Shown in pieces: positions 17,868 to 36,575 of a stretch of DNA of 64,000 nucleotides. Each line of letters opens with the position of its first letter. The stretch's first letter is position 1. The translations under genes were made by a program, and so were the position numbers. This DNA comes from Saccharothrix sp. (GTDB lineage: Bacteria; Actinomycetota; Actinomycetes; Mycobacteriales; Pseudonocardiaceae): positions 186,001-250,000 of the forward strand of contig NZ_JAPSLK010000004.1 of NCBI RefSeq assembly GCF_031180885.1, given 5' to 3'. Under the pieces are notes generated by a model. That model was not told the DNA's origin. It made no database searches and was given only the letters and a program-made list of their open reading frames with translations.

Positions 17868-18061
17868 CAAAACTCAGGCTACGCCAGGTAAGCGACGTCG
17901 CTCACAAGGTTGATCTGTCGAGTGACGACGCGAGATAGCCCTGTCGGCCGAGACCAGCTGTGCGCAACGCTGCTCCGGGATGTCGCCAACAGGCCCTGGC
18001 CACGGCGCATGTTCGTTCCGAAACTCGACAACAAGCATCCCCCGCTGGATAGGAGATCCAC

Positions 18062-19504
18062 ATGCCCGAGACCACGATTCGGACCCCGGCTGCCGACGTC
18101 AAGCACCTGCGTGAGCAGGTGCAGGAGCTCATGCCGCACCTGCGCGATGTGCTCAAGATGCTCGTCGGTATCCCGTCGATCGCGACGGTGCCCCCATCAT
18201 CCGACATGGACGCGTGCAGCAACGCCATCGTCTCCCAGTTCCAGCGCGCCGGACTCAACTCGGCGCGCGCCGATCGGATCCGCTACAACGGCCAGGAGAC
18301 CGCACCGATCGTCTTTGTCGACGAGCCCGGCCCACCTGAGGCGCCAAGCGTGCTGTTCTTCTCGCACTACGACGTGGCCCCGGTCAAGGGTCAGCAATGG
18401 TCAAGTGATCCGTTCAAACCGACCGAGAAGAACATCAGCAACGACGTTCGGCTCGTCGGCCGCGGCGCGTGCGACGACAAGGCCAGCATCTGTGCTCACC
18501 TCGGCATGGCTCAGCTGTTCGAAGGCAAGCCGCCAGTGCACCTGAAGATGGTCATCGAAGGTGAGGAGAAGCTGGGCCGCAGGGTGCTTTCGGACTACCT
18601 AAGCGACCCCACGACCCAAGACAACCGATTCTCCGCCGACGTCATCGTCGTGGCCAACAGCGGAAAACCGAACAGCAGTTCGCCGGCCATCACTTCGACG
18701 GTCCGTGGATTCGCCGTGTACGACCTGGAAGTCGCCACCCTCGAGCGACCGATCCACAGTGGCGCGTTCGGCGGACCGGTGCCGGATGCATTCATGGCGC
18801 TGGCGCAGTTGCTCGCGACGCTGCACGATCGCAACGGTGACGTGGCTGTGCCCGGTCTTACCCAGGACCAGCACGACTGGAACGCTGTCGATGAGAGCCG
18901 CATGCGCGCCGATGCCGGCCTACTGCCCGGCGTGTCGCTGATCGGCACTGGCCCGCTGGAGCAGCGCCTCTACGGCAAGCCGTCGATCAACGTGGTCGGC
19001 CTGGACACCGCCGGAGTGCAGCCAATAGACCATGCCGCACATGTGCTTTGTGCCCGCGCAAAAGCCCGCATCAGCGTGCGGCTGGCCCCCGGCCAAGACG
19101 TTCGCGCAGTGCAGTCGGCGCTGGAGCAGCACCTGAAAGGCGCGCGTCCGTGGGGCATCGACTTCACTCTGACGCCTGTGACCAACAGTTACGGTTTCAA
19201 CGCCGCACCAGGGGGGCAGTACCGTCTGCTGGCCGGGATGGCCATGGCCGAGGCACACGGCGCCGAGAGCGCTGAGGATATCGGGCAGGGTGGTGCAGGC
19301 TGGGCACCGCACGTTCTCCAGCAGCTCAACCCTGGCTCTGATGTCGTGCTGTGGGGTGTGCAGGACTCGCTGTCGAACAACCACAGCACCGATGAAAGCA
19401 TCAGCTACACCGAGCTGGAACGGCTGACACTGGCCGAGGCACTGTTGGTGCGCAAGGTCTCTGAAGCTGCGGCGGCCCCCGTCCCCCAGGCCAGGAAGAG
19501 CTGA
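18062..19504 (+). CDS. M20-family metallopeptidase
   Basis: A 480-residue M20/M28-clan peptidase starting at ATG 18062 behind AGGAG. Zinc-site motifs are SHYDVAP, GRGACDDKAS and EGEEK (the general-base Glu region), with HSGAFGG beginning the dimerisation lid and NNHSTDESI near the C-terminus supplying the last His. The family cleaves dipeptides or amidohydrolyses N-acyl amino acids. It is the first gene of a plus-strand unit with an ATP-grasp ligase and the SARP regulator. In a clavam context it could trim or release a peptidyl-clavam, which is inferred. No signal peptide is seen. Confidence 0.82.
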   Translation: MPETTIRTPAADVKHLREQVQELMPHLRDVLKMLVGIPSIATVPPSSDMDACSNAIVSQFQRAGLNSARADRIRYNGQETAPIVFVDEPGPPEAPSVLFFSHYDVAPVKGQQWSSDPFKPTEKNISNDVRLVGRGACDDKASICAHLGMAQLFEGKPPVHLKMVIEGEEKLGRRVLSDYLSDPTTQDNRFSADVIVVANSGKPNSSSPAITSTVRGFAVYDLEVATLERPIHSGAFGGPVPDAFMALAQLLATLHDRNGDVAVPGLTQDQHDWNAVDESRMRADAGLLPGVSLIGTGPLEQRLYGKPSINVVGLDTAGVQPIDHAAHVLCARAKARISVRLAPGQDVRAVQSALEQHLKGARPWGIDFTLTPVTNSYGFNAAPGGQYRLLAGMAMAEAHGAESAEDIGQGGAGWAPHVLQQLNPGSDVVLWGVQDSLSNNHSTDESISYTELERLTLAEALLVRKVSEAAAAPVPQARKS

Positions 19505-19543
19505 CCACCACAGACTCACGTTACGGAGAGGAGTCCTTCAGCC

Positions 19544-20794
19544 ATGCGGCCTAGGGTGGTCCTTGTCGGCCAACTGTCCTACTTTCCTCCGGTGTTCGAC
19601 AGTGCATGCCGGGCTGGCATCGACCTGATCCTCGTGCCCAGATCCGACGATCCGATCACGCCGGCCCGGTTGCCCGCCCCGGTCGTGGAGTTGCTCCCGT
19701 TGCCAATCGCCACCGACCCGGATGCGGCGTTGGACCTCCTGGCCCAGCGCCACAACCGGGAGCCGTTCGACGGCGTCATGGCCGGCAACGAGAAGGTCGT
19801 GCAGTTCGTGGCTCGTGCGGCCGCTAGGCTCGGTCTGGTAGGACTCACTGATGAGGCCGCAGCCGTCGTGCGAGACAAGGCGCTCATGCGGGCACGGCTG
19901 CTGGCTGCCGGTCTGACCATTCCGGACTTCGTCGTGCTGGCCGGGCCGGACCGCTGGCGGGATGCGTTGCGGCTCCGGTTCCCGCTGGTCGTAAAGCCGA
20001 CCAACGGGTACTCCAGCCTCGGTGTGGTCAGGATCGACCGTCCTGACCAGCTCGCCGCCGCGGTTGCCAGGGTGCACGCGCTGGCAACGGCGCGTCTCGC
20101 CGAAGGACGTCCGGTAGAGGTGCTCGTCGAGGAGTACCTGGACGGCGTTGAGTTGACCGCCGAATCCATAGCCCACCAAGGAACTGTGCGAGTCTGCGGG
20201 GTCAGCTACAAAAGCGATATGCCCGGCCCGTACTTCGAGGAGACGATGATGCGCGCGCCGACCCGGCTGCCAGCGGACGTGGTCACCGCCGTCGAGCACG
20301 AGGTGGTGGCCGCACACGTGGCGTTCGGGGTCACCGACGGCACAACGCACACAGAACTGCGCCTGCTAGCCGACGGGACGCCGGTCCTGCTTGAGATGGC
20401 GGCCCGTCTCGGCGGTGCTGGCGTCATGCATCACGTCATCCACGCCGCGACAGGAATCGACGTCGCCGCGGAGGCACTGCGGGTCCACATGGGGCATTCA
20501 CCTGAGTACTGGACGAAGCCGCCTGCACGACGCGGGCACGGCGCGGCGTTCAGCGTTCCGGTCGGTCCCGGCGGGCGGGTCGCGCGAGTCCGCGGGCTCG
20601 ACGGGCTGCGCGACGACCCCAGGGTGGACTACGTTATCGGGAACATGGTCCATCCAGGAGACGTCCTGGAGCCCTACCCGAACTGGTCTGCCTACCCCGG
20701 TATCGTGCTGTCCCACCACGACAGCGACGCCGACGCGACCGCCTTCCACCACTACCTCGCCCGCAACGTCCGCGTCGAGTATGAGCCTGCCTAG
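19544..20794 (+). CDS. ATP-grasp carboxylate-amine ligase
   Basis: A 416-residue ATP-grasp enzyme from ATG 19544. Visible elements are RFPLVVKPTNGYSSLGVV (ATP-binding Lys and flexible loop), EVLVEEYLDGVELTAESI (central strand) and LLEMAARLGGAG (metal-binding Glu and the catalytic-loop region). The fold joins a carboxylate to an amine through an acyl phosphate. In the S. clavuligerus clavulanate cluster an ATP-grasp ligase (GcaS, orf17) makes N-glycyl-clavaminate. This gene could similarly add an amino acid to a clavam intermediate, but the substrate is not readable from sequence. It lies 39 nt after the peptidase gene and overlaps the regulator by 14 nt. Confidence 0.82.
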   Translation: MRPRVVLVGQLSYFPPVFDSACRAGIDLILVPRSDDPITPARLPAPVVELLPLPIATDPDAALDLLAQRHNREPFDGVMAGNEKVVQFVARAAARLGLVGLTDEAAAVVRDKALMRARLLAAGLTIPDFVVLAGPDRWRDALRLRFPLVVKPTNGYSSLGVVRIDRPDQLAAAVARVHALATARLAEGRPVEVLVEEYLDGVELTAESIAHQGTVRVCGVSYKSDMPGPYFEETMMRAPTRLPADVVTAVEHEVVAAHVAFGVTDGTTHTELRLLADGTPVLLEMAARLGGAGVMHHVIHAATGIDVAAEALRVHMGHSPEYWTKPPARRGHGAAFSVPVGPGGRVARVRGLDGLRDDPRVDYVIGNMVHPGDVLEPYPNWSAYPGIVLSHHDSDADATAFHHYLARNVRVEYEPA

Positions 20795-23700
20795 AGTCGG
20801 CCGGAGCGAACCAGACGGCACCGACTGCCTCCAGTGGGCAGAGCGGCCGTGCCTGACGGTGTTCGGCCCCATGTCGGTGATGGTGGATGGGGAGCTCGTA
20901 CAGCCGGGGCCGCCCCGCCAGCGGGCGGTGTTGGCGCTGCTGCTGGTCAACGCACGTCAGGTGGTTCCTGTATCCACCCTGATCGAGTCGATCTGGGAAG
21001 GCCATCCGCCAGAGCGGGTGACGGCGACATTGCAGTCCTACGTGTCCCGACTGCGCGTGCTGCTGACCCGCTCCGGATCTGCACCTGCGCTGCACTGGCG
21101 GGCGCCTGGCTATCTGCTGGCCGTTCGGCCCGACCAAGCCGATGTCGGTCGGTTCGAGCTGGCAGTAGCGCACGGCAGAGAGTCCCTGCGCTGTGGTCGT
21201 GCGGCAGCGGCGCAGCGGTCTCTGTCGCTGGCGCTGCGGTTGTGGTCGGGCCAACCGTACGCCGAGTTGGCCGGCTACGGGTTTGCCAAGCAAGAGGCGA
21301 CCCGGTTGGATCAGATACGGCTGGCGGCCGTGGAGGGCCGAGCTGACGCCTGCTTCCAACTCAGGCAGGACGACGAAGTGCTTGAGGTGCTCGGCCGGGA
21401 GGTAGAGCAGAACCCGTTGCGCGAGAGTCTGGTGCTGCGGCTGATGCGCGCGCAATACCGGGTCGGGCGGCAGGCCGACGCGTTGCAGGTGTACGAACAG
21501 GTGAGGACACGCCTGGCCGATGAACTGGGCGCCGATCCCGGCCGAGACCTACAGCACCTTCACCGGGCCATCCTCCGCCAAGACCCCTCGCTCGACCCAG
21601 CCACACGGCCGGGTCGAGCGGTGTCTCGACGGGAGTTCACGCCCGCTCCGGGCGGTCCGCTTATATCCGCAACCGGGCCGCCCGCGCCGCAGCATCCGCT
21701 TAGGCTGCCGTTCGTCGGACGGAGTCACCTGATCGAACAGCTGGCTGGCAGGCCGATAGGCGCGTCCGGCCAGCGGGGTCGTGTGGTGCTGGTGACCGGG
21801 ACCGCCGGAACCGGCAAGAGCCGGCTGCTACTCGAACTGGCCGACCGGCTGACAGCCGACGGTACGGACGTGCTGTGGGCCTTCTGCCCGCCCGAGGACG
21901 CACCGCCGCTGTGGCCGTGGCGGCAGGTACTGCGCCGGCTACTCGGAGGATGGTCGCCCGCCGGACTACCAGCACCGGCGGAGCGGATCGTGCGGGCGGT
22001 GGCTGGCGGCGACGAGCACGCCCCGGCTAGCGCGCCAGCTTTCGACGTGGCCGACGCGGTGTGCCAAGCGGTGCTGGCCGCGGCCGTCGAACGGCGGCGG
22101 GCGGTGCTCGTCGAGGATGTCCAGTGGGCCGATGCCCGGTCGCTTGCCGTGCTGCGGCTGCTCACTCAGCAAGCGCACCAAGCGCCGTTGCTGCTGGTGG
22201 CCACCGCCCGTGGCTACGAAACCACCGATCCCACCGCTCACCCGGACATGCCACGGACACTGTCCGCCCTCGACGGCTCGCCCGCCGCGACCGTGATCCG
22301 GCTCTCCGAGCTACACCTGCAGAACACCGCAGCGCTGGTGCGCGCGGTAATTGGTGAGCCAGCCAGCGCCGGCATCGCAGCGGACCTGCACGAGCGGACC
22401 GGGGGGAACCCGTTGCTGCTGACGCAGTTGCTCGCCTCGCTGGAGAGTGCCCGAGGTGCTGGCGCCGCACTGGAGCGGATACCCGACGCGGTGCGTTCGA
22501 CCGTCCGGCAGTGGCTGGCGCGGCTGCCTCGGTGTGTGCGGGACGAACTTGAGATGTGCGCTGTGCTGGATCGGGACGCCGACCGGGCGCTGCCACCCGA
22601 TGTACCGTTGATAGGTCGGGACGGGCGCGATCCGACTCGGGTGGCGATCGGCGCGGGGCTGCTGGCGCCGTCCGGACGGCGCCTGGCGCATCCGCTGGTC
22701 GGCGAAGTGATCATGTCGGATCTGCCGCGTGTCCGGCTATCGTGGGTGCACGCCGCAGCGGCCAAGGCGTTGGTCGCGCGGGGGGCGGACGCGCAGACCA
22801 CCGACGCCGAGCCGATCCTACGGCATGCAGGCGCGGTGGCCGGGCTGGCCGGTGCCGTACGGGCGGTTCGGCCGCTGCTGTACGCGGCGCACCTGGCCGA
22901 ACGCGCCAGGGACACCCCGCAGGCGCTGGCCTGGGTGCGCCACGCGGTGAGCCTTATCGGCCGAAGTCACGACCGCCGAGCCGACGCCGAGATCGAGGTG
23001 GTGTTGCAATTGCACCGGGCGCGGCTCGGAGCCGCTGTGCACGGCTTCCGCAGCCAGGATGTGGATGCGGCCCACGCCAGGGCCGAGGAACTGTGCCGAC
23101 GAGTGCGCCTGCCGCTGCGTGCCACGGTGCTGCGGGCCCGCTGCCTGACCCGGCTGGTGACCGGTCAGTACGAGGAAGTGAACGTGCTGGCCGCGGAGCT
23201 GGACGAAGTGGGAGTGCAGGGCGACCGGGAGGCGGCCGTCACCGCGTGCCTGAGCCGGGGTGCCGCCCGCCACGAGCAGGGTCGGCTGGACGAGGCGCTG
23301 GCCGAGTTCGACCGAGGCGCGGCGCTCGCCAGCGCCGCAGGATCACGGCCGGGCGACCCCGCCGCGGTCGCGGTCGGCTGCTACATCACTCTCACCCACT
23401 GGTTCCAAGGGGCCCGCGAGGCCGCGTCCGCGCGCAGCCGTGCCCTGCTGTCGGCGACTGCCGTGGTCGGGGTGCGGCCCGTCGCCAGAGTGTTCGCGCT
23501 CTACGTCGACAGCGTGCTCGCCGCACTGGATGGCAACGTTGAGCAGGCCTCGCGCAGCGGGCAGGCCGGAACCGTGCTGGCCTCCCGGAGCGGGCTGAGC
23601 TACTGGCGCGACATGACGGCCGTGCCGTACGGCTGGGCGCTGGTCCACCGCGGCCAGGCTGACGCAGGGCTCGGGCTCATCCGGACGGCGCTGGCCTCGG

Positions 23701-23885
23701 CGGCGCGGTCCGAGGTGTGGTTGCGGCGGGCGCTGCACCTGCGGCTGCTGGCCGACGCCGAGCACCGCGCTGGCCACAACCTCGACGCCTGCCGGACGCT
23801 GCGCACGATGGTTGTACACGCCAGGTGCCGCCGCGAAGAACTCTACCTGCGGCCGGGCACCCAGTTCACGTTGCCACCGCTGTAG
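20781..23885 (+). CDS. SARP/BTAD-AAA transcriptional regulator (Cvm7-like)
   Basis: A 1034-residue regulator; start ATG 20781 inside the end of the ATP-grasp gene. Residues ~24-115 form an OmpR-like winged helix (LTVFGPMSVMVDG, RQRAVLALLLVNARQVV). Residues ~120-270 are the BTAD domain (ELGADPGRDLQHLHRAIL). An AAA/STAND ATPase follows with Walker A TGTAGTGKS near residue 340 and Walker B AVLVEDVQWAD near 440. The C-terminal ~350 residues look like TPR-type helices. The clavam clusters of S. clavuligerus also carry a large SARP-type regulator (Cvm7/Cvm7P). It ends 8 nt from the convergent clavaminate synthase gene. It is the most likely activator of this cluster, perhaps through the repeats at 24960-24996. 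Confidence 0.88.
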   Translation: MSLPRVGRSEPDGTDCLQWAERPCLTVFGPMSVMVDGELVQPGPPRQRAVLALLLVNARQVVPVSTLIESIWEGHPPERVTATLQSYVSRLRVLLTRSGSAPALHWRAPGYLLAVRPDQADVGRFELAVAHGRESLRCGRAAAAQRSLSLALRLWSGQPYAELAGYGFAKQEATRLDQIRLAAVEGRADACFQLRQDDEVLEVLGREVEQNPLRESLVLRLMRAQYRVGRQADALQVYEQVRTRLADELGADPGRDLQHLHRAILRQDPSLDPATRPGRAVSRREFTPAPGGPLISATGPPAPQHPLRLPFVGRSHLIEQLAGRPIGASGQRGRVVLVTGTAGTGKSRLLLELADRLTADGTDVLWAFCPPEDAPPLWPWRQVLRRLLGGWSPAGLPAPAERIVRAVAGGDEHAPASAPAFDVADAVCQAVLAAAVERRRAVLVEDVQWADARSLAVLRLLTQQAHQAPLLLVATARGYETTDPTAHPDMPRTLSALDGSPAATVIRLSELHLQNTAALVRAVIGEPASAGIAADLHERTGGNPLLLTQLLASLESARGAGAALERIPDAVRSTVRQWLARLPRCVRDELEMCAVLDRDADRALPPDVPLIGRDGRDPTRVAIGAGLLAPSGRRLAHPLVGEVIMSDLPRVRLSWVHAAAAKALVARGADAQTTDAEPILRHAGAVAGLAGAVRAVRPLLYAAHLAERARDTPQALAWVRHAVSLIGRSHDRRADAEIEVVLQLHRARLGAAVHGFRSQDVDAAHARAEELCRRVRLPLRATVLRARCLTRLVTGQYEEVNVLAAELDEVGVQGDREAAVTACLSRGAARHEQGRLDEALAEFDRGAALASAAGSRPGDPAAVAVGCYITLTHWFQGAREAASARSRALLSATAVVGVRPVARVFALYVDSVLAALDGNVEQASRSGQAGTVLASRSGLSYWRDMTAVPYGWALVHRGQADAGLGLIRTALASAARSEVWLRRALHLRLLADAEHRAGHNLDACRTLRTMVVHARCRREELYLRPGTQFTLPPL

Positions 23886-23893
23886 AGCCGGGG

Positions 23894-24883
23894 TCAGCGG
23901 CCCACGAACGGCACTACGTCTGCCGGTCTGATCTGGGCGTCCAGCAGATGCGGATCCCGGGTGTACATCCGGTGGAGCCAGCGGTCGCGGCCGTCCCACC
24001 TGGGGTGAAACGGCGTCCGGGCGTGCGTAGTCCGGCGGTTGTCCACGACGAGCAAGTCTCCTGACCTCAACCGCACCGGCTCGGCCACCTCGGTCAAAGC
24101 GGTTGACAACGCGCCAAGCGCCCGCCGTCCCGCCGGATCGTCCGGGCACATCAGCTCGCGGTCGTAGCTCATCATCGGATCGTCCGGGTCTCCGTACAGC
24201 ACTCGCACCGCCGTCACCGGCTCCGGTTGGCCCGGCGGCCGGAATGCCATGTCCACGTGGCAGGCGACGGGCTCGCCGAGCAGCCGATCGCGGTCGGAGG
24301 CAGGCAGGAGCGGCAGGGCGTTCCGCACCGAGGCCACCAGTGTCCGGGCTTTGCCGTCATGGTCAGCCCGTGAACATGCCAGCAGCACGTGGTGCGGCTG
24401 GTGGCGGTGATAGGCCATCTCGGTGTGGAACTCGAGCAGCGTCTCGGAGGTCTCGGCGGACAGGTGGTGGGCGTCGGGCGACGGGTAGATGTCTTGGAAC
24501 ACGCTGCCCGCGCGCAGCTCCCGATAGCCGGTTGGCTCTCCCAGCCGCAGCGCGATGATTGCCAGCCACGCCTCCATGGCCAGCAGCGGTCGCTGTTCCG
24601 GGGCGGGCGTCGTGGTCGGCGTGGCCGGCAGCTTGGCGGCGTCAACAGGGAGCCCGGTCAACAGCAGGTAGCCGTGCCGGTTACCCGCCTGGCGAAACGC
24701 ACGCAAGGGCTCCAACAGCTCGCCAGGTAGGCGCTCAGCCGCGGCGCGGGCCGCGCTGAAGAACGCAGGCAGGTCGCCCCGCGGTTGCACCGGCAACGTG
24801 TCGCGCAGTGCGCCGAGCAGGTCGCGGTGTGCGTCGCAACGCAGCACCGGCTGGTCGGTGATCGCTGTGGGAGAAGTTGTCAC
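23894..24883 (-). CDS. cas: Clavaminate synthase-like Fe(II)/2-oxoglutarate oxygenase
   Basis: A 329-residue clavaminate synthase-family oxygenase, about the length known for CAS (324). The start is GTG 24883 behind GGGAG. The metal triad is visible as His155/Glu157 in LLEFHTEMAYH and His289 in RRTTHARTPFH, with Arg303 fourteen residues later as the 2-oxoglutarate anchor, the same spacing I recall for CAS. CAS hydroxylates deoxyguanidinoproclavaminate, then closes and desaturates the oxazolidine ring to give clavaminate. VioC-type arginine hydroxylases are close relatives, but the neighbours ceaS, bls and pah make CAS the best call. It is transcribed divergently from the aldo-keto reductase gene. 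Confidence 0.88.
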   Translation of the reverse strand: MTTSPTAITDQPVLRCDAHRDLLGALRDTLPVQPRGDLPAFFSAARAAAERLPGELLEPLRAFRQAGNRHGYLLLTGLPVDAAKLPATPTTTPAPEQRPLLAMEAWLAIIALRLGEPTGYRELRAGSVFQDIYPSPDAHHLSAETSETLLEFHTEMAYHRHQPHHVLLACSRADHDGKARTLVASVRNALPLLPASDRDRLLGEPVACHVDMAFRPPGQPEPVTAVRVLYGDPDDPMMSYDRELMCPDDPAGRRALGALSTALTEVAEPVRLRSGDLLVVDNRRTTHARTPFHPRWDGRDRWLHRMYTRDPHLLDAQIRPADVVPFVGR

Positions 24884-24959
24884 GGTGACTCCCTGAATAG
24901 TCGTCGCGGTCGCGGCGCAGACGCCAGCTCGGCTGGTCGATACGAGGCTGGCAGGGCCT

Positions 24960-24996
24960 CCTTGCAGGGGACTGGACGAGTGCCTTGCAGGCGACT
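24960..24996. promoter_or_regulatory. Direct repeat with 23-bp period, possible SARP site
   Basis: CCTTGCAGGSGACT occurs at 24960-24973 and again at 24983-24996, about two helical turns apart, in the divergent cas/aldo-keto reductase promoter region. SARP regulators commonly bind direct repeats spaced 11 or 22 bp. Assignment to the cluster regulator is inference. Confidence 0.45.
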
Positions 24997-25041
24997 CTGG
25001 CCGGGATGCCAGAGCCGGATCGCACACCTAAGCTGCCCTAC

Positions 25042-26025
25042 ATGGATGTCTCGCTGCCCAATCGCACACTCGGCGATCTGACGGTGGCGGCACAGGGTTT
25101 GGGTTGTCTGAGCATGACCGGCTTCTACGGTCCCGCGGACGCCACCGAGTCGATTGCCACCATCCGACAGGGGATCGACCTCGGGGTGACCTTGTTGGAC
25201 ACCGCGGATGTGCAGGGCATGGGTACCGCGGAATGTTTGCTCGGCCGCGCACTGCGCGGACGGCGCGAGCAGGTCGTGGTGGCCACGAAGTTCGGGATGT
25301 TGCGCGCGGCGGACGGAACCTTCATTGGGCTGCGTGGCGACCCGGCTTATGTCCGGGAGGCCTGCACGGCATCGCTCCGCCGGTTGGGCATCGACCACAT
25401 CGACCTGTATTACCAGCACTGGATGGATCCGGTCGTGCCGGTCCAGGAGACCGTCGGTGCACTGGCCGAACTAGTGGCCGAGGGCAAAGTCATCCACATC
25501 GGCCTGTCCGAGCCAGGCCCGAACAGCGTCCGGCGCGCCCACACCGTGCACCCGATCACCGCAGTGCAGAGCGAGTGGAGTGTGTGGACCCGTGAACTAG
25601 AGACCGGCGTATTGCCTGTGTGCAGGGAACTGGGCATCGGACTGGTCGCCTACGCCCCACTCGGCCGCGGCTTCCTCGCTGGCCGCATCACTTCGGTCGC
25701 GCACCTGCGCCACGACGACTTCCGTCGCACCATCCCACGGTTCAGCGCCGACAACCTGCCGCGCAACCTCGCCATCGTCCGCGTGCTGTCCACCGTCGCG
25801 ACGCGGGCCGGCTGCACGCCGGCACAAGCAGCGCTGGCCTGGATAGCGCGGCGCGGGCCGGACGTGGTCGCCATCCCCGGCACTGCACGGCACGCGCACC
25901 TTCGGGAGAACCTAGCCGCTCTCGCCGTCGAGTTGTCCGAGGCGGACCTCGCGGAGCTGGATGCGGTCGGGCCAGCGCACGGCGCACGGTACGGTCCAGA
26001 CATGTTGGCCATGACCGGACGGTGA
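25042..26025 (+). CDS. cvm1: Aldo/keto reductase (Cvm1-like), catalytic Tyr replaced
   Basis: A 327-residue TIM-barrel aldo/keto reductase; start ATG 25042 (ATG 25006 is possible). Family motifs are RTLGDLTVAAQGLGCLSM, VVVATKFG (catalytic Lys), LYYQHWMDP (His) and the NADPH-binding end region AIPGTARHAHLREN. The usual DTADVYG reads DTADVQG: the catalytic Tyr is Gln, so ordinary carbonyl reduction is doubtful. S. clavuligerus cvm1, in the 5S-clavam cluster, is an aldo-keto reductase homologue. Here it lies between cas and the aminotransferase, convergent with the latter at 5 nt. Confidence 0.78.
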   Translation: MDVSLPNRTLGDLTVAAQGLGCLSMTGFYGPADATESIATIRQGIDLGVTLLDTADVQGMGTAECLLGRALRGRREQVVVATKFGMLRAADGTFIGLRGDPAYVREACTASLRRLGIDHIDLYYQHWMDPVVPVQETVGALAELVAEGKVIHIGLSEPGPNSVRRAHTVHPITAVQSEWSVWTRELETGVLPVCRELGIGLVAYAPLGRGFLAGRITSVAHLRHDDFRRTIPRFSADNLPRNLAIVRVLSTVATRAGCTPAQAALAWIARRGPDVVAIPGTARHAHLRENLAALAVELSEADLAELDAVGPAHGARYGPDMLAMTGR

Positions 26026-26030
26026 GCTGA

Positions 26031-27431: not shown

Positions 27432-27582
27432 GGCGGGCTCCCTCGACACGTGAGGCGTCCAGGATCGCCGCGCCGGCTTGGCACCGGCTGGAGGACGGTG
27501 GGAGAACGCAGCCAGCGAATCATCCAACCGACGCCAAGGTCACCCTGGCACAGTCAGCGGCGGGTACGAGGAGGTGGTGCCG

Positions 27583-28767
27583 GTGAAATCGATTCTGTTC
27601 TACCTGCCCAGCGTGGGCAGCCACGGTCAGATCACCAGGGGCATGTCGGGGAGGAACCACCAAAACTACCAGAACATGCTTTGGCAGCTCGGGCATCAGG
27701 CGCAGGCCGCCGACGAGATGGGCTACTGGGGACTGTGCTTCACCGAGCACCACTTTCATATCGAGGGGTTCGAGGTCTCCAACAACCCGATCATGCTCGG
27801 GCTCTACCTCGCCATGCGTACCCGCCACATACGGGTCGGACAAATGGCGAATGTACTGCCCGTGCACAATCCGCTGCGGCTGGCCGAGGACCTCGCGATG
27901 CTCGACCACATGACCCGAGGTCGCGTCTTCGTCGGCGTGGCGCGGGGATCCCAGAAGCGCTGGGCCGAGGTGATGGGTCAGGTCTACGGCATCGGCTCGG
28001 CACTGTCGGATGCAAGTGCGGCAGACCAGCGAAACCGGGAACTGTTCGAGGAACACTGGGAGATCATCAAGAAGGCGTGGACCAGGGATACGTTCAGCCA
28101 TCATGGGCCTACTTGGACGATTCCGCCAGCCGGGGTGAACTTCCCGTACGACGCAGCACGCCGGTATGGCCGGGGGCTGGCCGCCGACGGCAGCGTGACT
28201 GAGATCGGCATCGCGCCACAGCCGTACCAGAAGCCGTACCCACCGGTGTTCCAGCCGTTCAGTTTCAGTGAGGAGACGTTCCGGTTCTGCGCCCGCGAGG
28301 GCATCGTGCCGGTGGTACTCAATACCGACGACCAGATCATCGCGCGGCTCCTCGACGTGTACCAGCAGGAGGCTGAGGCGGCTGGTCACGGCCAGCTCAA
28401 GCGAGGTCAGCGCGTCGGTGTGATGCGCGATGTGCTCGTCTCGCGCGACGCTGACACTGCACATCGCTGGGCACGGTGTGGCGGTGGGTTCATCTTCGAG
28501 CACTGGTTCGGCCCGATGGGCTATAGCGAATGTCTGCGCAGGATCGGGGAGACTGGTCGGATCGAGGCGGACTACGACACGCTCGTCGAGCGCGGCCTGG
28601 AATGGGTCGGCACGCCGGACGATATCAACCGCATGATCGAGCAAATGGTAACCCTGCACGAGCCGGAATACCTGTTGCAGTGCCAGTACTCCGGACTCAT
28701 TCCCCACGATGTCCAGATGCGCAGCCTTGAACTGTGGGCGACGGAAATCGCGCCCAACTGGTTGTGA
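27583..28767 (+). CDS. cvm5: Luciferase-like flavin monooxygenase (Cvm5-like)
   Basis: A 394-residue bacterial-luciferase-family monooxygenase. GTG 27583 was chosen because GAGGAGG ends 8 nt upstream. Typical segments are MGYWGLCFTEHHFHIEGFEV, RTRHIRVGQMANVLPVHNPL, LAEDLAMLDHMTRGRVFVGV and YPPVFQPFSFSEE, forming the FMN/substrate TIM barrel. S. clavuligerus cvm5, in the clavam cluster, encodes this enzyme type and acts late in 5S-clavam formation. It starts an operon with the SnoaL-like and SHMT-like genes. No flavin reductase (cvm3-like) gene is present in the window, so reduced FMN must come from elsewhere. Confidence 0.87.
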   Translation: MKSILFYLPSVGSHGQITRGMSGRNHQNYQNMLWQLGHQAQAADEMGYWGLCFTEHHFHIEGFEVSNNPIMLGLYLAMRTRHIRVGQMANVLPVHNPLRLAEDLAMLDHMTRGRVFVGVARGSQKRWAEVMGQVYGIGSALSDASAADQRNRELFEEHWEIIKKAWTRDTFSHHGPTWTIPPAGVNFPYDAARRYGRGLAADGSVTEIGIAPQPYQKPYPPVFQPFSFSEETFRFCAREGIVPVVLNTDDQIIARLLDVYQQEAEAAGHGQLKRGQRVGVMRDVLVSRDADTAHRWARCGGGFIFEHWFGPMGYSECLRRIGETGRIEADYDTLVERGLEWVGTPDDINRMIEQMVTLHEPEYLLQCQYSGLIPHDVQMRSLELWATEIAPNWL

Positions 28768-28774
28768 CCACGTC

Positions 28775-29221
28775 ATGATGACCGACGAGGAACGCGTGGC
28801 GCTGGTAACGGCGTACCTGATGGCATTCGACAACGGCGGAACCGGGCATGATGGAATTGGCGTGTTGGACTACTTCGCCGACGATGCGCGATTCTGGTTT
28901 CCCAAGTGGGGCTTGGCCATCGGCCGGTCCAGGATCGGCGATCTGTTTGCCGATCTCAGCTCTACCGTCCACGCCGTCACCCACCACTTCTCGTCGTTCA
29001 CCTGGATTCTGTCTGGCGGTGATCTGCTCGCGGTCGAGGGCACCACTCACGGCGAGCACCGCGACGGTCGGTGGCAGGTCGGCCAGCCGGAGTGGGGCGC
29101 CGGGCACTGGTGCGGCGTGTTCGAGGTACGCGACTGGCTGATCCAACGGGCATTCATCTACCTCGACCCCGACTACGCCGGCCAGGACGTGGACCGCTAC
29201 CCGTGGCTGAGCCGCCGATGA
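28775..29221 (+). CDS. cvm2: SnoaL/NTF2-like protein (Cvm2-like)
   Basis: A 148-residue small protein of the NTF2/SnoaL cone fold (LVTAYLMAFDNGG, VLDYFADDARFWFPKWG, VHAVTHHFSSFTW, LLAVEGTTHGEHRDGRWQ). The start is the first of two tandem ATGs at 28775, 7 nt after the monooxygenase stop. Such folds act as isomerases, cyclases or ligand-binding proteins. S. clavuligerus cvm2, needed for 5S clavams, encodes a protein of this type. The position directly after the Cvm5 homologue supports orthology, but no catalytic residues can be fixed from sequence alone. Confidence 0.78.
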   Translation: MMTDEERVALVTAYLMAFDNGGTGHDGIGVLDYFADDARFWFPKWGLAIGRSRIGDLFADLSSTVHAVTHHFSSFTWILSGGDLLAVEGTTHGEHRDGRWQVGQPEWGAGHWCGVFEVRDWLIQRAFIYLDPDYAGQDVDRYPWLSRR

Positions 29222-29256
29222 CGAATTGTCGTCGACCCGACTCTGAGGAGCCCCAA

Positions 29257-30450
29257 GTGGATGTTATGGCAACGTTGGGCGAGACCTGCAGCCTCAACCT
29301 GTTCCCGATCGAGAACCGCATGTCACCGCGGGCATTGGCGGCGCTGTCGTGCGACGCGGTGAACCGCTATCCGTACTCCGAGACCCCGGATACCGTCTAC
29401 GGCGACGTAAGTGGGTTGGCAGCGGTATACGAATACTGCGCGGAACTGGGGAAGACGTACTTCGGGGCACGGCACGCCTTCGTGCAGTTCCTGTCCGGGC
29501 TCCACACGATGCACACCGTGCTGACCGCGCTGGCCGCTCCCGGAGACCGTGTCATGATCATGGATCCGTCCTGCGGCGGCCACTACGCCACCGCCGTGAT
29601 CTGCCGCGGCTACGGCTACCAGTACCGTTACGTACCGTTCGACCGCACCAGCTGCCAGCTCGACATCGAGGCCCTGGCCGCCAGTTGCGCCGACGTCGAC
29701 CTGATCTACCTGGATATGTCCACGCTGCTGCGGTTGCCCGACGCGCGGGCATTGCGCTGGGCCGCCCCGCACGCACGGATCTGTCTGGACGCGTCACACA
29801 TCTTCGGCCTGCTGCCGGCTACCGGCCGCACCCTCGTCCTCGATGGCGGATTCGATAGCATCTCCGGCAGCACACACAAGACTCTGCCGGGCCCGCAGAA
29901 GGGGATGCTCGTCACCAACCAGGACTCAGTCGCCGACCGGCTGGCCGCACGGATTCCCTACACCGCGTCGAGCCCACACTCGGCGAGTATTGGGGCTCTG
30001 GCGATCACCCTCGAGGAGCTCATGCCGCACCGCGTCGAATACGCCACGCAGATTGTCGCCAACGCGCGTGCCTTGGCCGCGAGTCTGGTCGACCAGGGCT
30101 TCGACGTGGCTGGGTCTGCGTTCGGCTACACCGACACGCACCAGGTCTGGGTGCACCCGCCAGCCAGCGTCGGGACGCATACCTGGAGCCGGTGCCTGAC
30201 CGCGGCGCGCATTCGCTCGACCACCGTAGTTCTGCCCAGTTCTGGTTTGACCGGGCTACGCATTGGGGTGCAGGAGTTGACCAGGACGGGGATGTGCGAG
30301 GAGGACATGTTGGCAGTCGCCGACCTACTCGGCCGACTGCTGTTGCGGCACGAGTCACCGGATGAAGTCATTCCGGACGTGGTCGATCTGGTCCGATCGT
30401 TCCCCGATGTGCACTTCGCAACCCAGCCCACAGCCGTCGTAGCCCACTGA
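29257..30450 (+). CDS. SHMT-like PLP enzyme (alanylclavam OrfA-like)
   Basis: About 397 residues from GTG 29257, which has AGGAG six bases upstream; an ATG at 29218 overlapping the previous stop would give 410. The protein follows fold-type-I serine hydroxymethyltransferase/threonine aldolase enzymes: YSETPDTVYGDVSGLAAV, LSGLHTMHTVLTALAAPGDR, ICLDASHIFGLLPA (PLP Asp/His) and SGSTHKTLPGPQKGML (PLP Lys). The S. clavuligerus alanylclavam group includes an SHMT-like gene (orfA), thought to add a glycine- or alanine-derived unit to the clavam aldehyde. The same role here would give an amino-acid side-chain clavam; this is inference from context. Confidence 0.8.
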   Translation: MDVMATLGETCSLNLFPIENRMSPRALAALSCDAVNRYPYSETPDTVYGDVSGLAAVYEYCAELGKTYFGARHAFVQFLSGLHTMHTVLTALAAPGDRVMIMDPSCGGHYATAVICRGYGYQYRYVPFDRTSCQLDIEALAASCADVDLIYLDMSTLLRLPDARALRWAAPHARICLDASHIFGLLPATGRTLVLDGGFDSISGSTHKTLPGPQKGMLVTNQDSVADRLAARIPYTASSPHSASIGALAITLEELMPHRVEYATQIVANARALAASLVDQGFDVAGSAFGYTDTHQVWVHPPASVGTHTWSRCLTAARIRSTTVVLPSSGLTGLRIGVQELTRTGMCEEDMLAVADLLGRLLLRHESPDEVIPDVVDLVRSFPDVHFATQPTAVVAH

Positions 30451-30541
30451 GTGGTTCCGTAGCCTCCGCCTCGCCGCGGCACTGACCTGCTTCAAACGAC
30501 TCACCAAACTCACCACGTGAGACGACGTCTAAGCAACCTGC

Positions 30542-32333
<1,792 letters not shown>

Positions 32334-32338
32334 CCAAT

Positions 32339-33898
32339 ATGTTCACTGGAGACGCATCAGTTCCACCTGTGCTCGGATTCCGAGTCCGGGTAGGAACGCG
32401 CGGTGAGCCGGGGCCGATACCGCGCTGGCTCGCCGCTGGCACGGCTGTCCCGGTCGTCGACGAACGGTATGCGGGCTGGCTGCTGGCCGGGGTTGGTCCG
32501 GCGAGCCCGCGTACGGCCGATGGCGTCACCGTGCTGCTCGCTGGCGAGCTGTACCACCGCGACGCGCTGCGGGCCGCGCTCGGCGAGTCGACTGGCGTGG
32601 TCACCGATGACGCCGAACTCCTGTTGGCCTGCTGGTTGAAGTACGGTCACGCCGGGCTCCGGCTGTGCAACGGTCGGTTCGCCGCAGTCGTTGTCGACGC
32701 CGACTCGGTTGTGATCGCGACGGACCATGCCGGCAGCGTCCCGGTCTACCTGCGCCGGGAGGCTGGCGCAGTGCACGTAGCCACGGAGGCCAAGGCGCTG
32801 GCCGGGGGGCGCCCTGGCAACGCCTTGCCAGGCACGGAGCCGGTGCCCGCGACACCGGGCGTACTACGGATGCGGGCTGGTTCGGCCCTGACACTGCGAC
32901 CATCGGGGCCGATCGGAGTGGCCGGGTGGGTGCGAACCTGGACGCCTCCTGTGCACCGGTTGGCGATCCTGCCCGGACAGGCCGTGCGGCAGGTGGCGGA
33001 TGTGCTGGAGGCGGCGGTCCACACGCGGATGGCAGGCTCAGTCACGGTGGTGCTGTCCGGCGGAATCGACTCCAGCTCTGTGGCAGCGCTGGCGAGTCGG
33101 GCCGGTAGCCGGCTCACCACCGTCTCACTGGGCACCGACGTTGGTGACGAGTTCGCCGCCGCCCGTGTGGTCGCGGAGCATGTCGGAAGCGACCACAGAG
33201 AGTTCCGGTGCCGGGGCGAGGAACTGGTCCGGCAGTTGCCATGGGCGGTGGCAGCGGCCGAGATCGCCGATGCCAAGGTGCTGGAGTACCTGCTGCCGTT
33301 GGTGGTGCTGTACCGGATGCTGCCGCCGGAGGGGCGGTTGCTGACCGGCTACGGTGCAGATATCCCACTGGGTGGAATGCACCGGGACACGACCAGGTTG
33401 GCTTCGCTGGACGGCACCATCGCCGCCGACATGTCCGGCTTCGATGGGCTCAACGAGCTGTCCCCGGTGCTGTCCACCCTGGCCGGGCACTGGACGACGC
33501 ACCCGTTCTGGGATCGCGACGTACTCGATCTGCTCACCGCACTGGAGCCGGGGCTCAAGCGGCGCGACGGGCGGGACAAGTGGGTGCTGCGCGAGGCGAT
33601 ACGGGACCTGCTGCCCGAGGCGACCGTGCGCCGGCCCAAGCTCGGCGTGCACGAGGGCTCGGGCACGACCGGTATCTGGACGCGGCTGCTGCTGGCGCAC
33701 GGCGTGTTGGCGGCTGACGTGGCTGCTGTCAAGAGCGCGATGGTGGCCGCGATCCACCGCAGGGTCGTCGGTGCCGGGGAACATCCCGACTCAGTGTCGT
33801 TCGATGAGGTGCTGGCTGCGGTGCTCGGGTCCGTTCGTCGCTGCCGACACCGGCCATTCCAGGCATGTCTCACTAGTGTGCAAAGGGGGGAGTCGTGA
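32339..33898 (+). CDS. bls: Beta-lactam synthetase
   Basis: A 519-residue asparagine-synthetase-B homologue, matching BLS length (513). The N-terminal domain lacks the catalytic Cys1 of glutamine-dependent AsnB, as expected for BLS. The C-terminal domain has the ATP pyrophosphatase loop VVLSGGIDSSSVAAL and the KLGVHEGSG segment containing the lysine that stabilises beta-lactam closure. BLS adenylates carboxyethylarginine and closes the four-membered ring to deoxyguanidinoproclavaminate. The ATG at 32339 is chosen; a TTG at 32330 would overlap the ceaS stop. It overlaps pah by 4 nt. Confidence 0.93.
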   Translation: MFTGDASVPPVLGFRVRVGTRGEPGPIPRWLAAGTAVPVVDERYAGWLLAGVGPASPRTADGVTVLLAGELYHRDALRAALGESTGVVTDDAELLLACWLKYGHAGLRLCNGRFAAVVVDADSVVIATDHAGSVPVYLRREAGAVHVATEAKALAGGRPGNALPGTEPVPATPGVLRMRAGSALTLRPSGPIGVAGWVRTWTPPVHRLAILPGQAVRQVADVLEAAVHTRMAGSVTVVLSGGIDSSSVAALASRAGSRLTTVSLGTDVGDEFAAARVVAEHVGSDHREFRCRGEELVRQLPWAVAAAEIADAKVLEYLLPLVVLYRMLPPEGRLLTGYGADIPLGGMHRDTTRLASLDGTIAADMSGFDGLNELSPVLSTLAGHWTTHPFWDRDVLDLLTALEPGLKRRDGRDKWVLREAIRDLLPEATVRRPKLGVHEGSGTTGIWTRLLLAHGVLAADVAAVKSAMVAAIHRRVVGAGEHPDSVSFDEVLAAVLGSVRRCRHRPFQACLTSVQRGES

Positions 33899-34902
33899 CC
33901 ACCGAGCAGCGGATCTCAACCGGCAGCTCGCCGCGCTATGCACAAGTCGCCACGTTCATGCGGCTACCGTTGGTGCCCAACCCTCGCCAGCGCGATTTGG
34001 TCGTGGTCGGCGCACCCTATGACGGCGGGACCAGCTACCGGCCAGGTGCGCGGCTGGCGCCACGGGCGATCCGGCACGAGTCGTGCCTGATCCACGGCAC
34101 CGGTATCGATCGGGGGCCCAACGTTTTCGACGTGCTGAACGTCGTTGACGCCGGTGACATCGATCTGAGTCCGTTTGCGATGGAACAGGCCATCGAGACC
34201 GCCACCGCCGCACTGACCGAGTTGGCCAACGACAACGATGCGTTCCTTCTGCTGGGTGGTGATCATTCACTGTCCCTGCCGGGTATGCGGGCCGCTCACT
34301 CACGGCACGGGCCGCTGGCGGTCTTGCACCTCGACGCGCACAGTGACACGTTCCCTCCGGTCTACGGCGGGCTGCACCACCACGGTACGCCCTTTCGGTG
34401 GGGTATCTACGAAGGGCTGATCGACCCGACCGGCATGATCCAGATCGGGATCCGCGGCCACAACCCGAGTCCGGACTCGCTGGACTACCCGCGTGATCGT
34501 GGGGTCACTGTCGTGCTGGCGCGGGACTGCATGGGCGGGGCTGCAGTCGAGCGACTGGTGGATCAGATCCGACGGGTCGTGGGGACCCGGCCGCTGTACG
34601 TGTCGGTCGATGTCGATGTGGTCGATCCGGCGTTTGCGCCGGGCACCGGAACGCCTGCGCCGGGAGGGTTGTCCTCCCGCGAACTGCTGAGCCTGCTCAC
34701 GGCGGTCGGCGACCTCAAGCCGGTGGCGTTCGACGTGATGGAGGTCTGCCCGCCATACGACCCGTCCGGCATTACCGCGCTGCTGGCCGCCGAAGTCGGC
34801 GCAGAGCTCATCTACCAGTACCTGCGGGCGCATCGGCAGGCTAGTGCAGCGGTCCCAGCCGTCGAGCGTCAAGCCGACCCGCCTGAAACCCGCCGCAGGT
34901 AG
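33895..34902 (+). CDS. pah: Proclavaminate amidinohydrolase
   Basis: A 335-residue ureohydrolase (arginase/agmatinase family). Binuclear Mn ligands are visible in LLGGDHSLSLPGM, LHLDAHSDTFP and VSVDVDVVDPAFAPGTGTPA. PAH removes the guanidino group of guanidinoproclavaminate as urea, giving proclavaminate for the second clavaminate synthase reaction. Agmatinase is the alternative by homology, but the GTGA overlap with bls and the downstream oat gene fix the pathway. No signal peptide is present. The C-terminal ~25 residues beyond the barrel are Ala/Pro/Arg-rich and probably disordered. Confidence 0.92.
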   Translation: MTTEQRISTGSSPRYAQVATFMRLPLVPNPRQRDLVVVGAPYDGGTSYRPGARLAPRAIRHESCLIHGTGIDRGPNVFDVLNVVDAGDIDLSPFAMEQAIETATAALTELANDNDAFLLLGGDHSLSLPGMRAAHSRHGPLAVLHLDAHSDTFPPVYGGLHHHGTPFRWGIYEGLIDPTGMIQIGIRGHNPSPDSLDYPRDRGVTVVLARDCMGGAAVERLVDQIRRVVGTRPLYVSVDVDVVDPAFAPGTGTPAPGGLSSRELLSLLTAVGDLKPVAFDVMEVCPPYDPSGITALLAAEVGAELIYQYLRAHRQASAAVPAVERQADPPETRRR

Positions 34903-34950
34903 CGGTGTGGCCGTCCAAGCTTCCGCAAGGGTTTTCGAGGAAGGTCGTCG

Positions 34951-36108
34951 ATGTTCGAGCACGTTCCTGCGGGATTTCGGGTGCACACCGACAGCGCACG
35001 CATACTCGACGATGATCGGCACGACTTGACGATCATCATCTCCGAGACGCCTGCGATTGCCAGCGCGGTGTTTACCCGGTCTCGATTCGCCGGACCCAGC
35101 GTGTTGGTGAGTCGTGAGGCCATGCGCGACCAGGTGGTGCGTGGCGTGGTGGTGCTTGCCCGCAACGCCAATGTGGCAACCGGCTCGCAAGGGCTCGCCA
35201 ACGCCGTCGAGGTACGCCGACTGGCCGCCGTCGCTGTGGGCGTGCCACAGGAGGAACTGCTGATAGCGTCCACCGGGGTGATTGGTGTGCAGTACCCGAT
35301 GGCTAGTGTGACCGCCGCGCTAGGTAGGGTGCCGCGGCCCCTGGGCGGCTCCGACTTTGGCGCCGCGGCACGCGCGATCATGACGACCGACATCCGACCG
35401 AAGGTCTTCAGCCGCCGATGCGGCACTGCCTCGCTCGTCGGCATCGCCAAGGGGATCGGCATGATCGAACCGGATATGGCGACGATGCTGGCGTTCTTCT
35501 GCACCGACGCAGCCATTCCGGCCCCAGACCTGGATCGGATGTTCCGTGCGACGATCGCCACGACGTTCAACGCGGTGAGCATCGACACCGACACCTCGAC
35601 CAGTGACACCGCCGCCATCTTCGCCAACGGCCAGGCCGGTCCTGTCGACTTCGACGACTTCGAGGCGCAACTGCATGCCGTAGCGCTGCATTTGACCCGC
35701 GAGATCGCCAGGGACGGCGAGGGCGCCAGCAAACTTATCGAGGTTCAGGTCACCGGAGCTCGCGACGACCAACAGGCCAAGCGCGTAGGCAAGGCCGTCG
35801 TCAACTCACCACTGGTGAAGACTGCCGTCCACGGCAGCGATCCCAACTGGGGCCGGATCGTCATGGCCATCGGAAAATGCCAGGACGACGAGGACATCGA
35901 CCCGGACAAAGTGAGCATCGCCTTGGGCGACCTGGAAGTCTATCCTGCAACCCCTACCGCTGACGACCTCGCCGTGCTGGCCGACGAAATGCGCGGAGAT
36001 ACTGTCCACATCAACATCGCGCTTGGCGTAGCCACCGGCCGTTTCACCGTCTACGGCTGTGACCTGACCGAGGGCTACGTCCGTCTTAACTCCGCTTACA
36101 CCACGTGA
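34951..36108 (+). CDS. oat: Ornithine acetyltransferase (ArgJ family)
   Basis: A 385-residue ArgJ-family protein, like OAT2 of the clavulanate cluster (393). The autoproteolytic site is in KGIGMIEPDMATML, where cleavage before the Thr makes the alpha/beta chains and frees the Thr nucleophile; NSPLVKTAVHGSDPNWGRI and the C-terminal region complete the family pattern. The enzyme moves acetyl groups between N-acetylornithine and glutamate and so supports arginine supply, the clavam precursor. GGAAGG precedes ATG 34951. It is the last gene of the early operon, with about 80 non-coding bases before the IS debris. Confidence 0.9.
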   Translation: MFEHVPAGFRVHTDSARILDDDRHDLTIIISETPAIASAVFTRSRFAGPSVLVSREAMRDQVVRGVVVLARNANVATGSQGLANAVEVRRLAAVAVGVPQEELLIASTGVIGVQYPMASVTAALGRVPRPLGGSDFGAAARAIMTTDIRPKVFSRRCGTASLVGIAKGIGMIEPDMATMLAFFCTDAAIPAPDLDRMFRATIATTFNAVSIDTDTSTSDTAAIFANGQAGPVDFDDFEAQLHAVALHLTREIARDGEGASKLIEVQVTGARDDQQAKRVGKAVVNSPLVKTAVHGSDPNWGRIVMAIGKCQDDEDIDPDKVSIALGDLEVYPATPTADDLAVLADEMRGDTVHINIALGVATGRFTVYGCDLTEGYVRLNSAYTT

Positions 36109-36186: not shown

Positions 36187-36360
36187 TCATCCTGCGGTGG
36201 TCTCGTAGTTCTGGAGGACGTGGATGGCTTTGGCAAGGCGGCTGGCGCGGTAGGGGCAGATCCGTAGTTTGCGCAGGACGCGCCAGGTCTTGAGTTGGGA
36301 GTTGGCGCGTTCGCCGGGTCTGCGGAGTCGGGCGTGGGCTCGGTTGGCGCGGTCGCGGAG
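36187..36360 (-). mobile_element. IS5-family transposase C-terminal remnant
   Basis: The minus strand encodes LRRPGERANSQLKTWRVLRK and CPYRASRLAKAIHVLQNYE before the stop at 36187, the typical DDE-tnp_4 tail of actinobacterial IS5-type transposases. The rest of the gene is replaced by an oppositely oriented IS3 fragment at about 36340-36360. Confidence 0.65.
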
Positions 36361-36552
36361 TCGTTTTTCGCCACCATCAAGACCGAGCTGCTCGACCGAC
36401 AGCCCTGGCCCACCAGGACCATGGCGCACAAGGCGATCTTCGAGTACATCGAGGGCTGGTTCAATACCCGTCGCCTGCACTCCAGCCTCGGCTACCTCAG
36501 CCCCGCCGCCTACGAAGCAACCCGCCACCACCAGCTGGAACAGGTAGCCTGA
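36338..36552 (+). mobile_element. IS3-family OrfB C-terminal remnant
   Basis: The plus strand encodes VGAVAESFFATIKTELLDRQ, EYIEGWFNTRRLHSSLGYLS and PAAYEATRHH up to the stop at 36552, the C-terminal part of an IS3-type integrase-core transposase with its final catalytic Glu region. Orientation and start coincide with the break in the IS5 remnant, so one element inserted into or recombined with the other. It is inactive. Confidence 0.7.
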
Positions 36553-36575
36553 CCACACCTCATCGACCCTGTCCG

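Follow-up and report, generated by a model that had tools for sequence, protein, structure and literature searches.

A Saccharothrix clavam cluster predicted to make a clavam-containing dipeptide

The window analysed here is a 64,000-nucleotide stretch of a Saccharothrix sp. genome (contig NZ_JAPSLK010000004.1, positions 186,001 to 250,000), in which thirteen genes stand in tight order between window positions 18,062 and 36,108. Together they probably make up an intact 5S-clavam cluster, whose product would be a dipeptide with a clavam part, of a hydroxy-alanylclavam type rather than valclavam. The block holds a full set of early clavam enzymes and, beside them, a predicted transaldolase and a peptide-bond-forming enzyme, the combination that we use as a working definition of a valclavam-type cluster. 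Gene content, conserved motifs, kinship and co-occurrence are the observations; the substrates, the order of the late steps, the length of the side chain, the second amino acid and the regulation are deduced from them.

Early and late 5S-clavam genes

The early enzymes have clavam enzymes as their best solved structures. N2-(2-carboxyethyl)arginine synthase (CeaS) scores 781 bits against 1upa and 259 against the next structure, beta-lactam synthetase (BLS) 414 bits against 1jgt and 105 against CarA, and proclavaminate amidinohydrolase (PAH) 448 bits against 1gq6 and 216 against the next. Clavaminate synthase (CAS) matches 1drt (371 bits, E = 7.8e-110); its second match is also a clavaminate synthase (357 bits), and the score then falls to 147. 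CAS also lies above the cut-off of the NCBIfam clavaminate synthase model NF043003 (487 bits versus 450). The best structure for ornithine acetyltransferase (OAT) is 1vz6, with 492 bits. A carbapenam synthetase in place of BLS is ruled out (105 versus 414 bits).

Residues were compared across 22 sequences each of CeaS, BLS and PAH, 21 of CAS and 19 of OAT, the window included, with stops written as X in the aligned pieces. The residues that we take to be catalytic are retained: the Glu of RHEFTAG and the Asp of GDGG in CeaS, the Tyr, Glu and Lys positions of BLS and the metal-ligand motifs of PAH in 22/22, the HTE motif and distal His of CAS in all 21, and the nucleophilic Thr of OAT in 18 of the 19, the window copy among them. 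The quartet by which we recognize a 5S-clavam cluster (CeaS, BLS, PAH and CAS, each with its catalytic residues) is thus complete. An earlier note on this DNA, made from the sequence alone, had claimed the complete early pathway, OAT included, and had named non-clavam best matches for CeaS, BLS and PAH, or lost residues, as grounds for giving it up; checked against solved structures, the claim stands.

The aldo/keto reductase, aminotransferase, luciferase-like, SnoaL-like, serine hydroxymethyltransferase (SHMT)-like and SARP genes listed in that note are likewise present in the block, and its assignment of them to the cvm genes of Streptomyces clavuligerus holds in part. The aminotransferase is of the Cvm6 type, at 67% to the copy adjoining OAT on the S. 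clavuligerus plasmid pSCL4, which is named cvm6P in a table of PMC3992018. The cvm1 and cvm5 labels fit by family only. The same source gives cvm6, cvm5, cvm4, cas1, cvm1, cvm2 and cvm3 as consecutive chromosomal loci of S. clavuligerus (PMC3992018); at family level, cvm6, cvm5, cas1 and cvm1 have counterparts in the window, and none of its genes remains to be matched with cvm3 or cvm4. For the SnoaL-like gene the label cvm2 is tentative, because the table names cvm2 a ribulose-5-phosphate epimerase (PMC3992018). The comparison with S. clavuligerus drew on its plasmid sequences; the Cvm1 and Cvm5 labels rest on family and on conservation across clavam clusters. The luciferase-like monooxygenase is 71-91% to copies in five other loci that bear OrfA, the SHMT-like gene of the alanylclavam cluster, and the SnoaL-like protein is 61-86% to copies in other clavam clusters. 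Relatives of Cvm5 at E 1e-60 were found in four plasmid records, none from S. clavuligerus. The SARP matches that of pSCL4 in pieces of 52% and 34%.

Transaldolase, ligase and predicted product

The SHMT-like protein is 61-65% to the SHMT-like protein of pSCL4, taken as OrfA, and the lysine of the STHK motif, which binds pyridoxal phosphate (PLP), is kept in six of six sequences. A tree-based study of 2017 groups OrfA with L-threonine transaldolases (PMC5490192). KaTTA, which comes from a predicted valclavam cluster and was grouped with OrfA in 2023, acts on aryl aldehydes with L-Thr but with neither Gly nor Ser (PMC10495429). The gene that the earlier note called SHMT-like is therefore better read, by kinship, as a putative L-threonine transaldolase of the OrfA/KaTTA type, and a plain housekeeping SHMT is rejected on the same ground. 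With this reading, a clavam dipeptide takes the place of simple 5S clavams as the predicted product of the candidate producer proposed earlier.

Two of the thirteen genes had been left uninterpreted, and one of these encodes an ATP-grasp protein whose best solved structure is the L-amino acid ligase (LAL) BL00235 (3vot, phmmer E = 8.6e-64). It is predicted to form the dipeptide bond. Valclavam is classed as a dipeptide in the excerpt of PMC5096306.

The distribution of this ligase was compared across loci; genomes are cited below by working labels. At E 1e-150, CeaS was found in 6/390 genomes of the host family and in 1/394 drawn from the class (the host genome being counted in the former and the sole match in the latter), and in 15/394 of a second family, taken as Streptomycetaceae on account of its chaplin genes. 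OrfA at E 1e-90 occurs in 2/70 and 4/392 genomes of two genera of the second family; in the host family and class it was looked for around the CeaS matches. A search with the monooxygenase found 2 of 258 genomes (G1027 and G1188) and by this route added G1188 to the comparison, and a scan of genome contigs turned up S. luteola and a single, distant match in Pirellulales.

The comparison took in ten loci that bear OrfA (the window, S. luteola (G065), G844, G949, G1325, G1185, G1027, the S. clavuligerus plasmid, G1188 and G1348), some on short contigs. OrfB, OrfC and OrfD are names that we presume for genes assigned by their order on pSCL4. OrfA is unbroken in eight of the ten. Six of these eight (the window, S. 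luteola, G844, G949, G1325 and G1185) carry the ligase, and their fetched stretches show no ortholog of OrfB/C/D; the G949 ligase lies on a second contig with the monooxygenase, aminotransferase and SARP. The other two have OrfB/C/D and no ligase (G1027, searched genome-wide at E 1e-40, and S. clavuligerus, in its plasmids). No unbroken-OrfA locus has both in one cluster, and OrfA is broken in both G1188 and G1348, the loci that lack ligase and OrfB/C/D alike.

In the pathway that these genes suggest, CeaS, BLS, CAS and PAH would lead to clavaminic acid, with OAT aiding the supply of arginine. Four proteins, the Cvm6-like aminotransferase with the Cvm1-like, Cvm5-like and SnoaL-like proteins, would convert clavaminic acid to a 5S-clavam aldehyde. 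L-threonine would then donate a glycyl unit to this aldehyde through the OrfA-type enzyme, and a beta-hydroxy clavam amino acid would result. The ligase would join this to another amino acid, by the logic of valclavam and clavamycin, to yield a small peptide antibiotic, and the SARP would turn the cluster on. On the alanylclavam route the hydroxyl of the aldol step would be removed by a dehydratase, a Rid protein and an aminotransferase, in roles that are themselves predicted; as OrfB/C/D are missing from the window, the hydroxyl should stay, and the ligase is the obvious next step. Given the Cvm5-like monooxygenase, the side chain has probably lost one carbon, as in alanylclavam. The presence or absence of a Cvm5-like gene suggests two sub-types of cluster that differ by one side-chain carbon, a comparison made with what we take to be the structures of the compounds, valclavam included.

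Several observations weigh against this reading. The NCBIfam scores of the OrfA-type enzyme, 188 bits for fluorothreonine transaldolase and 179 for SHMT, are both under the cut-off, and its best solved structures are SHMTs, slightly ahead of 7k34, presumably ObiH. After the NN pair of its thiamine pyrophosphate (TPP) motif, window CeaS carries N and S in place of the D and T of 1upa, each seen in one of the 22 sequences; these appear to be mild changes. The ligase clade is not exclusive to clavam clusters, a 58% relative from a deazapurine-type cluster of Streptomyces angustmyceticus being nested inside it with no other clavam enzymes in the 41 kb around it. The alternation has weak points of its own: an OrfC relative (47%) lies on another contig of G844, where the surrounding 20 kb hold neither OrfB nor OrfD, and G1185 shows a weak Rid match (37% over 71 aa) on its cluster contig. 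G1348 retains within 39.5 kb only a piece of CeaS and no BLS, PAH, CAS or OAT, and the loss of nearly all early genes makes its broken OrfA a matter of general decay. This leaves G1188 as the only clean case, with no ligase within the 39.5 kb searched, and there a sequencing error could have broken OrfA. Since the ten loci share ancestry, they amount to an association and not to ten events. G1325 and G1185 have the ligase with no Cvm5- or SnoaL-like gene found, so the late steps are not uniform.

The last point also speaks for an unlikely alternative, a true valclavam cluster in which the transaldolase acts on a two-carbon aldehyde, with side products as the output of the Cvm5- and SnoaL-like proteins. 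Ligase and OrfA are indeed common to the window, G1325 and G1185, and the KaTTA cluster is predicted as valclavam (PMC10495429). The Cvm5- and SnoaL-like genes are, however, kept in the window, S. luteola, G844 and G949, and the window aminotransferase is of the Cvm6 type, whereas G1325 and G1185 have relatives of 32% only.

A simple 5S-clavam producer, making hydroxymethylclavam, formyloxymethylclavam or clavam-2-carboxylate with OrfA and the ligase as passengers, would account for the 5S-branch genes of the window and for G1188, which keeps its other genes with no nearby ligase and a broken OrfA. Passengers would hardly be expected to remain unbroken and conserved at 84% (OrfA) and 88% (ligase) in S. 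luteola, and we hold this explanation to be improbable. There is even less to be said for a silent or decaying cluster without a natural product. Decay could be seen in S. luteola, where OAT is already lost, and none of the thirteen genes is an evident transporter or resistance gene; for a clavulanic acid-like cluster of Saccharomonospora viridis, clavulanate production is given as not shown in the excerpt of PMC6856088. Against this, all thirteen frames are open in the window, twelve of the thirteen proteins are 67-91% conserved in S. luteola, and a housekeeping ArgJ can perhaps replace OAT.

The least probable of the four is an alanylclavam producer that draws OrfB/C/D functions from elsewhere in its genome, for OrfA is common to the window and the S. 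clavuligerus plasmid cluster but the window has no OrfB/C/D at E 1e-8, and no OrfC relative was found at E 1e-60 in its genome or in S. luteola (the genome-wide search covered OrfC and not OrfB or OrfD). A clavulanic acid cluster is ruled out, there being no ortholog of ORF12/Cpe, the clavulanate dehydrogenase, the P450 or the oligopeptide-binding protein OppA in window 10-46 kb.

Related clusters and mosaic history

The clavam dipeptide cluster proposed here can be set beside several known systems. The alanylclavam cluster of pSCL4 shares CeaS, BLS, PAH, OAT, the Cvm6P-type aminotransferase, SARP and OrfA with it, OAT at just 46% identity; unlike S. clavuligerus, the window has these functions united, lacks OrfB/C/D, and has the ligase and an M20-like protein in addition. 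Union in one cluster, which the earlier note had put forward as a special feature, turns out not to be one, as it is also seen in S. luteola, G844, G949 (on two contigs), G1027 and G1188 (with OrfA broken). Streptomyces antibioticus Tu1718 is said, in a paper of 2012, to unite these functions too. The Tu1718 valclavam cluster and the KaTTA-bearing cluster have an OrfA-type transaldolase in common with the window, from which their side-chain length and amino acid may differ. G844 and G949, whose family is taken as Streptomycetaceae, share CeaS, BLS, PAH, CAS, OAT, the Cvm1-, Cvm5- and Cvm6-like proteins, the SnoaL-like protein, OrfA, ligase and SARP with the window, but their early genes belong to another branch and their fetched stretches hold no M20-like protein. 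Clusters of the clavulanic acid type (G340 and several Streptomyces-type genomes) have CeaS-BLS-PAH and CAS in common with it.

The early and late genes disagree on relationship. In the trees of CeaS, BLS and PAH, the window and S. luteola join G340 (100% support), and after S. luteola the closest CeaS among the loci compared is that of G340 (77%). G340 is of the clavulanate type, with orthologs of ORF12, the dehydrogenase and the P450. OAT groups with G219, G215 and G340 (100%), and CAS joins G1027 (100%). The aminotransferase tree places the window with S. luteola, G844, G949 and G1348 (100%), and OrfA gives the same set more weakly (78%). A forced split between clavulanate and 5S clusters is rejected by CeaS+BLS+PAH (p value of the approximately unbiased test, p-AU, 5e-5) and by CAS (2e-4), as is, by both, forcing the window, S. 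luteola, G844 and G949 together; the early-gene arrangement is in turn rejected by the aminotransferase (p-AU 2.6e-4). These tests used the model LG+F+G4 with no outgroup and 10000 resamplings, with G1024 in the clavulanate set and four genomes left free; one further constraint was degenerate and is disregarded. Cluster types were labelled from gene content, G215 lacking the dehydrogenase group and G1024, on a cut contig, being placed by its closeness to G963; the G1011 representatives of the clavulanate groups match 2xep (ORF12, E 3e-184) and 2jah (clavulanate dehydrogenase, E 1e-127). A group of orthologs in which PAH and CAS had run together was set aside. The conflict between early and late gene trees points to a mosaic cluster whose two parts have different histories. 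Exchange between cluster types or repeated origin of clavulanate-type clusters are possible causes.

Four further genomes (G219, G917, G1135 and G1062) have CeaS-BLS-PAH-CAS clusters that we assigned to neither the clavulanate nor the 5S set, and in three of the four an ATP-grasp gene stands between BLS and PAH.

In the ligase tree, the pair of window and S. luteola forms the sister group of all other ligases, and that of S. angustmyceticus falls within the clavam set. The S. angustmyceticus gene (L098, 20.0-21.2 kb) is carried on plasmid p1 amid 7-deazaguanine genes, SARP-like genes and a nonribosomal peptide synthetase, possibly a peptide-nucleoside pathway that uses the same kind of ligase. 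In G1325 (L083-L084) a second PAH-like gene (55%) adjoins the ligase gene at ~22.7 kb of the joined stretch.

The M20-like protein, the second of the two genes passed over earlier, is specific to the clusters of the window and S. luteola. It matches the copy in the S. luteola cluster at 82% and the three other copies found at 43-47%; at E 1e-100, 5 of 40 genomes gave a match, its own included. The nearest solved structure is 3dlj, a Beta-Ala-His dipeptidase. The overall M20 frame is kept. Of the five metal ligands of an active M20 metallopeptidase, which we take to be His, Asp, Glu, Asp/Glu and His, two are replaced, E by K (EGEEK) and D by N (VVAN). Both replacements occur in the window and in the S. 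luteola cluster, and the three other M20 proteins have neither; the changes are also seen against 3dlj. The protein is thus probably not an ordinary peptidase.

A bolder proposal, which we put forward only tentatively and think somewhat less likely to be right than wrong, is a new chemotype: a hydroxy-alanylclavam dipeptide one carbon shorter than valclavam, made by an OrfA-plus-ligase hybrid of the alanylclavam and valclavam routes, with the metal-ligand-deficient M20 protein in a non-hydrolytic or protective role and an early operon of the branch shared with clavulanate joined to a 5S late module, the early genes having moved between cluster types more than once.

Cluster limits and neighbouring genes

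All thirteen frames are open at or near the coordinates in Table 1, which follows the gene order. The true starts of CAS (~24,889), the luciferase-like monooxygenase (~27,583), the SnoaL-like gene (~28,775) and the SHMT-like gene (~29,218) probably lie inside the longest open reading frame (ORF). The CeaS and BLS genes as called share four bases, and so do BLS and PAH, the start of the next gene lying over the previous stop, and both pairs look translationally coupled.

Table 1. Positions of the thirteen cluster genes in the window
Product	Position	Strand	Remarks
M20-family peptidase-like protein	18062..19504	+	Pfam PF01546/PF07687
ATP-grasp L-amino-acid ligase (LAL)	19544..20794	+	Pfam ATP-grasp_4, ATPgrasp_N, LAL_C2
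SARP-type regulator, Cvm7P-like	20781..23885	+	Pfam BTAD, AAA_16, Trans_reg_C; start codon uncertain
Clavaminate synthase (CAS)	23894..24889	-	probable GTG start 24889; longest ORF to 25027
Aldo/keto reductase, Cvm1-like by family	24985..26025	+	PF00248; divergent neighbour of CAS
Class-III aminotransferase, Cvm6-like (5S-branch entry)	26031..27527	-	PF00202
Luciferase-like flavin monooxygenase, Cvm5-like by family	27583..28767	+	PF00296; longest ORF from 27478
SnoaL/NTF2-fold small protein	28775..29221	+	PF12680; longest ORF from 28709
PLP enzyme, predicted L-threonine transaldolase type (OrfA/KaTTA-like)	29218..30450	+	NCBIfam scores, OrfA kinship
CeaS, N2-(2-carboxyethyl)arginine synthase	30606..32333	+	1upa E 4.6e-234
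BLS, beta-lactam synthetase	32330..33898	+	1jgt E 8.8e-123
PAH, proclavaminate amidinohydrolase	33895..34902	+	1gq6 E 1.4e-133
OAT, ornithine acetyltransferase, intact in window	34951..36108	+	1vz6 E 8.3e-147

The host genome is 9.46 Mb in size and belongs to the same genus as S. luteola. DNA homology to S. luteola over the 30 kb compared is 79-84% in window 17,875-35,424 with nothing beyond, and the cluster limits therefore look real. The early operon of S. luteola is inverted and relocated relative to the window, and its OAT gene, beside PAH (L013, ~5.2-5.6 kb), is a frameshifted, truncated remnant, the other twelve proteins being conserved. Mean G+C content at third codon positions is 0.80 in the block (12 mechanically chosen ORFs, one of them a shadow ORF and the SnoaL-like gene, labelled cvm2, not in the set) versus 0.90 in 26 flanking ORFs.

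At the cluster edges, frames at 36187-36735 and 16818-17357 look like remnants; one has part of a response-regulator domain, and the other has what we take to be a transposase-like tail (no Pfam match). Further out, two adjoining class-3 lipase genes lie at 11962-15407; one of them has a beta-propeller, the other a PLAT domain. A 942-aa protein encoded at 40946-43774 has a signal-like start, long Lys/Pro/Ala-rich repeats and no Pfam match, and looks like a secreted repeat protein; AT skew is very strong (0.30-0.33) in the stretch that holds it.

In the literature searched (titles and abstract openings, with most subscription journals outside), there is no description of a Saccharothrix clavam cluster and no paper that combines clavam, ATP-grasp and dipeptide; on the product, the ligase, the chemistry of Cvm5 and S. 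luteola itself, next to nothing came up. United 5S clusters exist elsewhere; the new points are the Saccharothrix setting, the alternation of the ligase with OrfB/C/D, the mosaic history and an M20-like protein with altered metal ligands. Clavams of the dipeptide kind belong to the antimetabolite-type agents. Inhibition of beta-lactamases is stated among clavams for clavulanic acid only, in the excerpt of PMC6163296, and we therefore claim no promise as an inhibitor for the product of this cluster. PMC6856088 and PMC9146315 cite the idea that the clavulanic acid cluster arose from a duplicated 5S-clavam cluster. Our mosaic trees are relevant to it, as the early genes in our sample are not sorted by cluster type. 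The window offers an unbroken clavam cluster from a soil bacterium far from the Streptomyces producers and, at 18 kb, small enough for expression as a whole. Pending more loci, the alternation of OrfA/LAL with OrfA/BCD may provide a simple genetic rule for dipeptide versus free alanylclavam.

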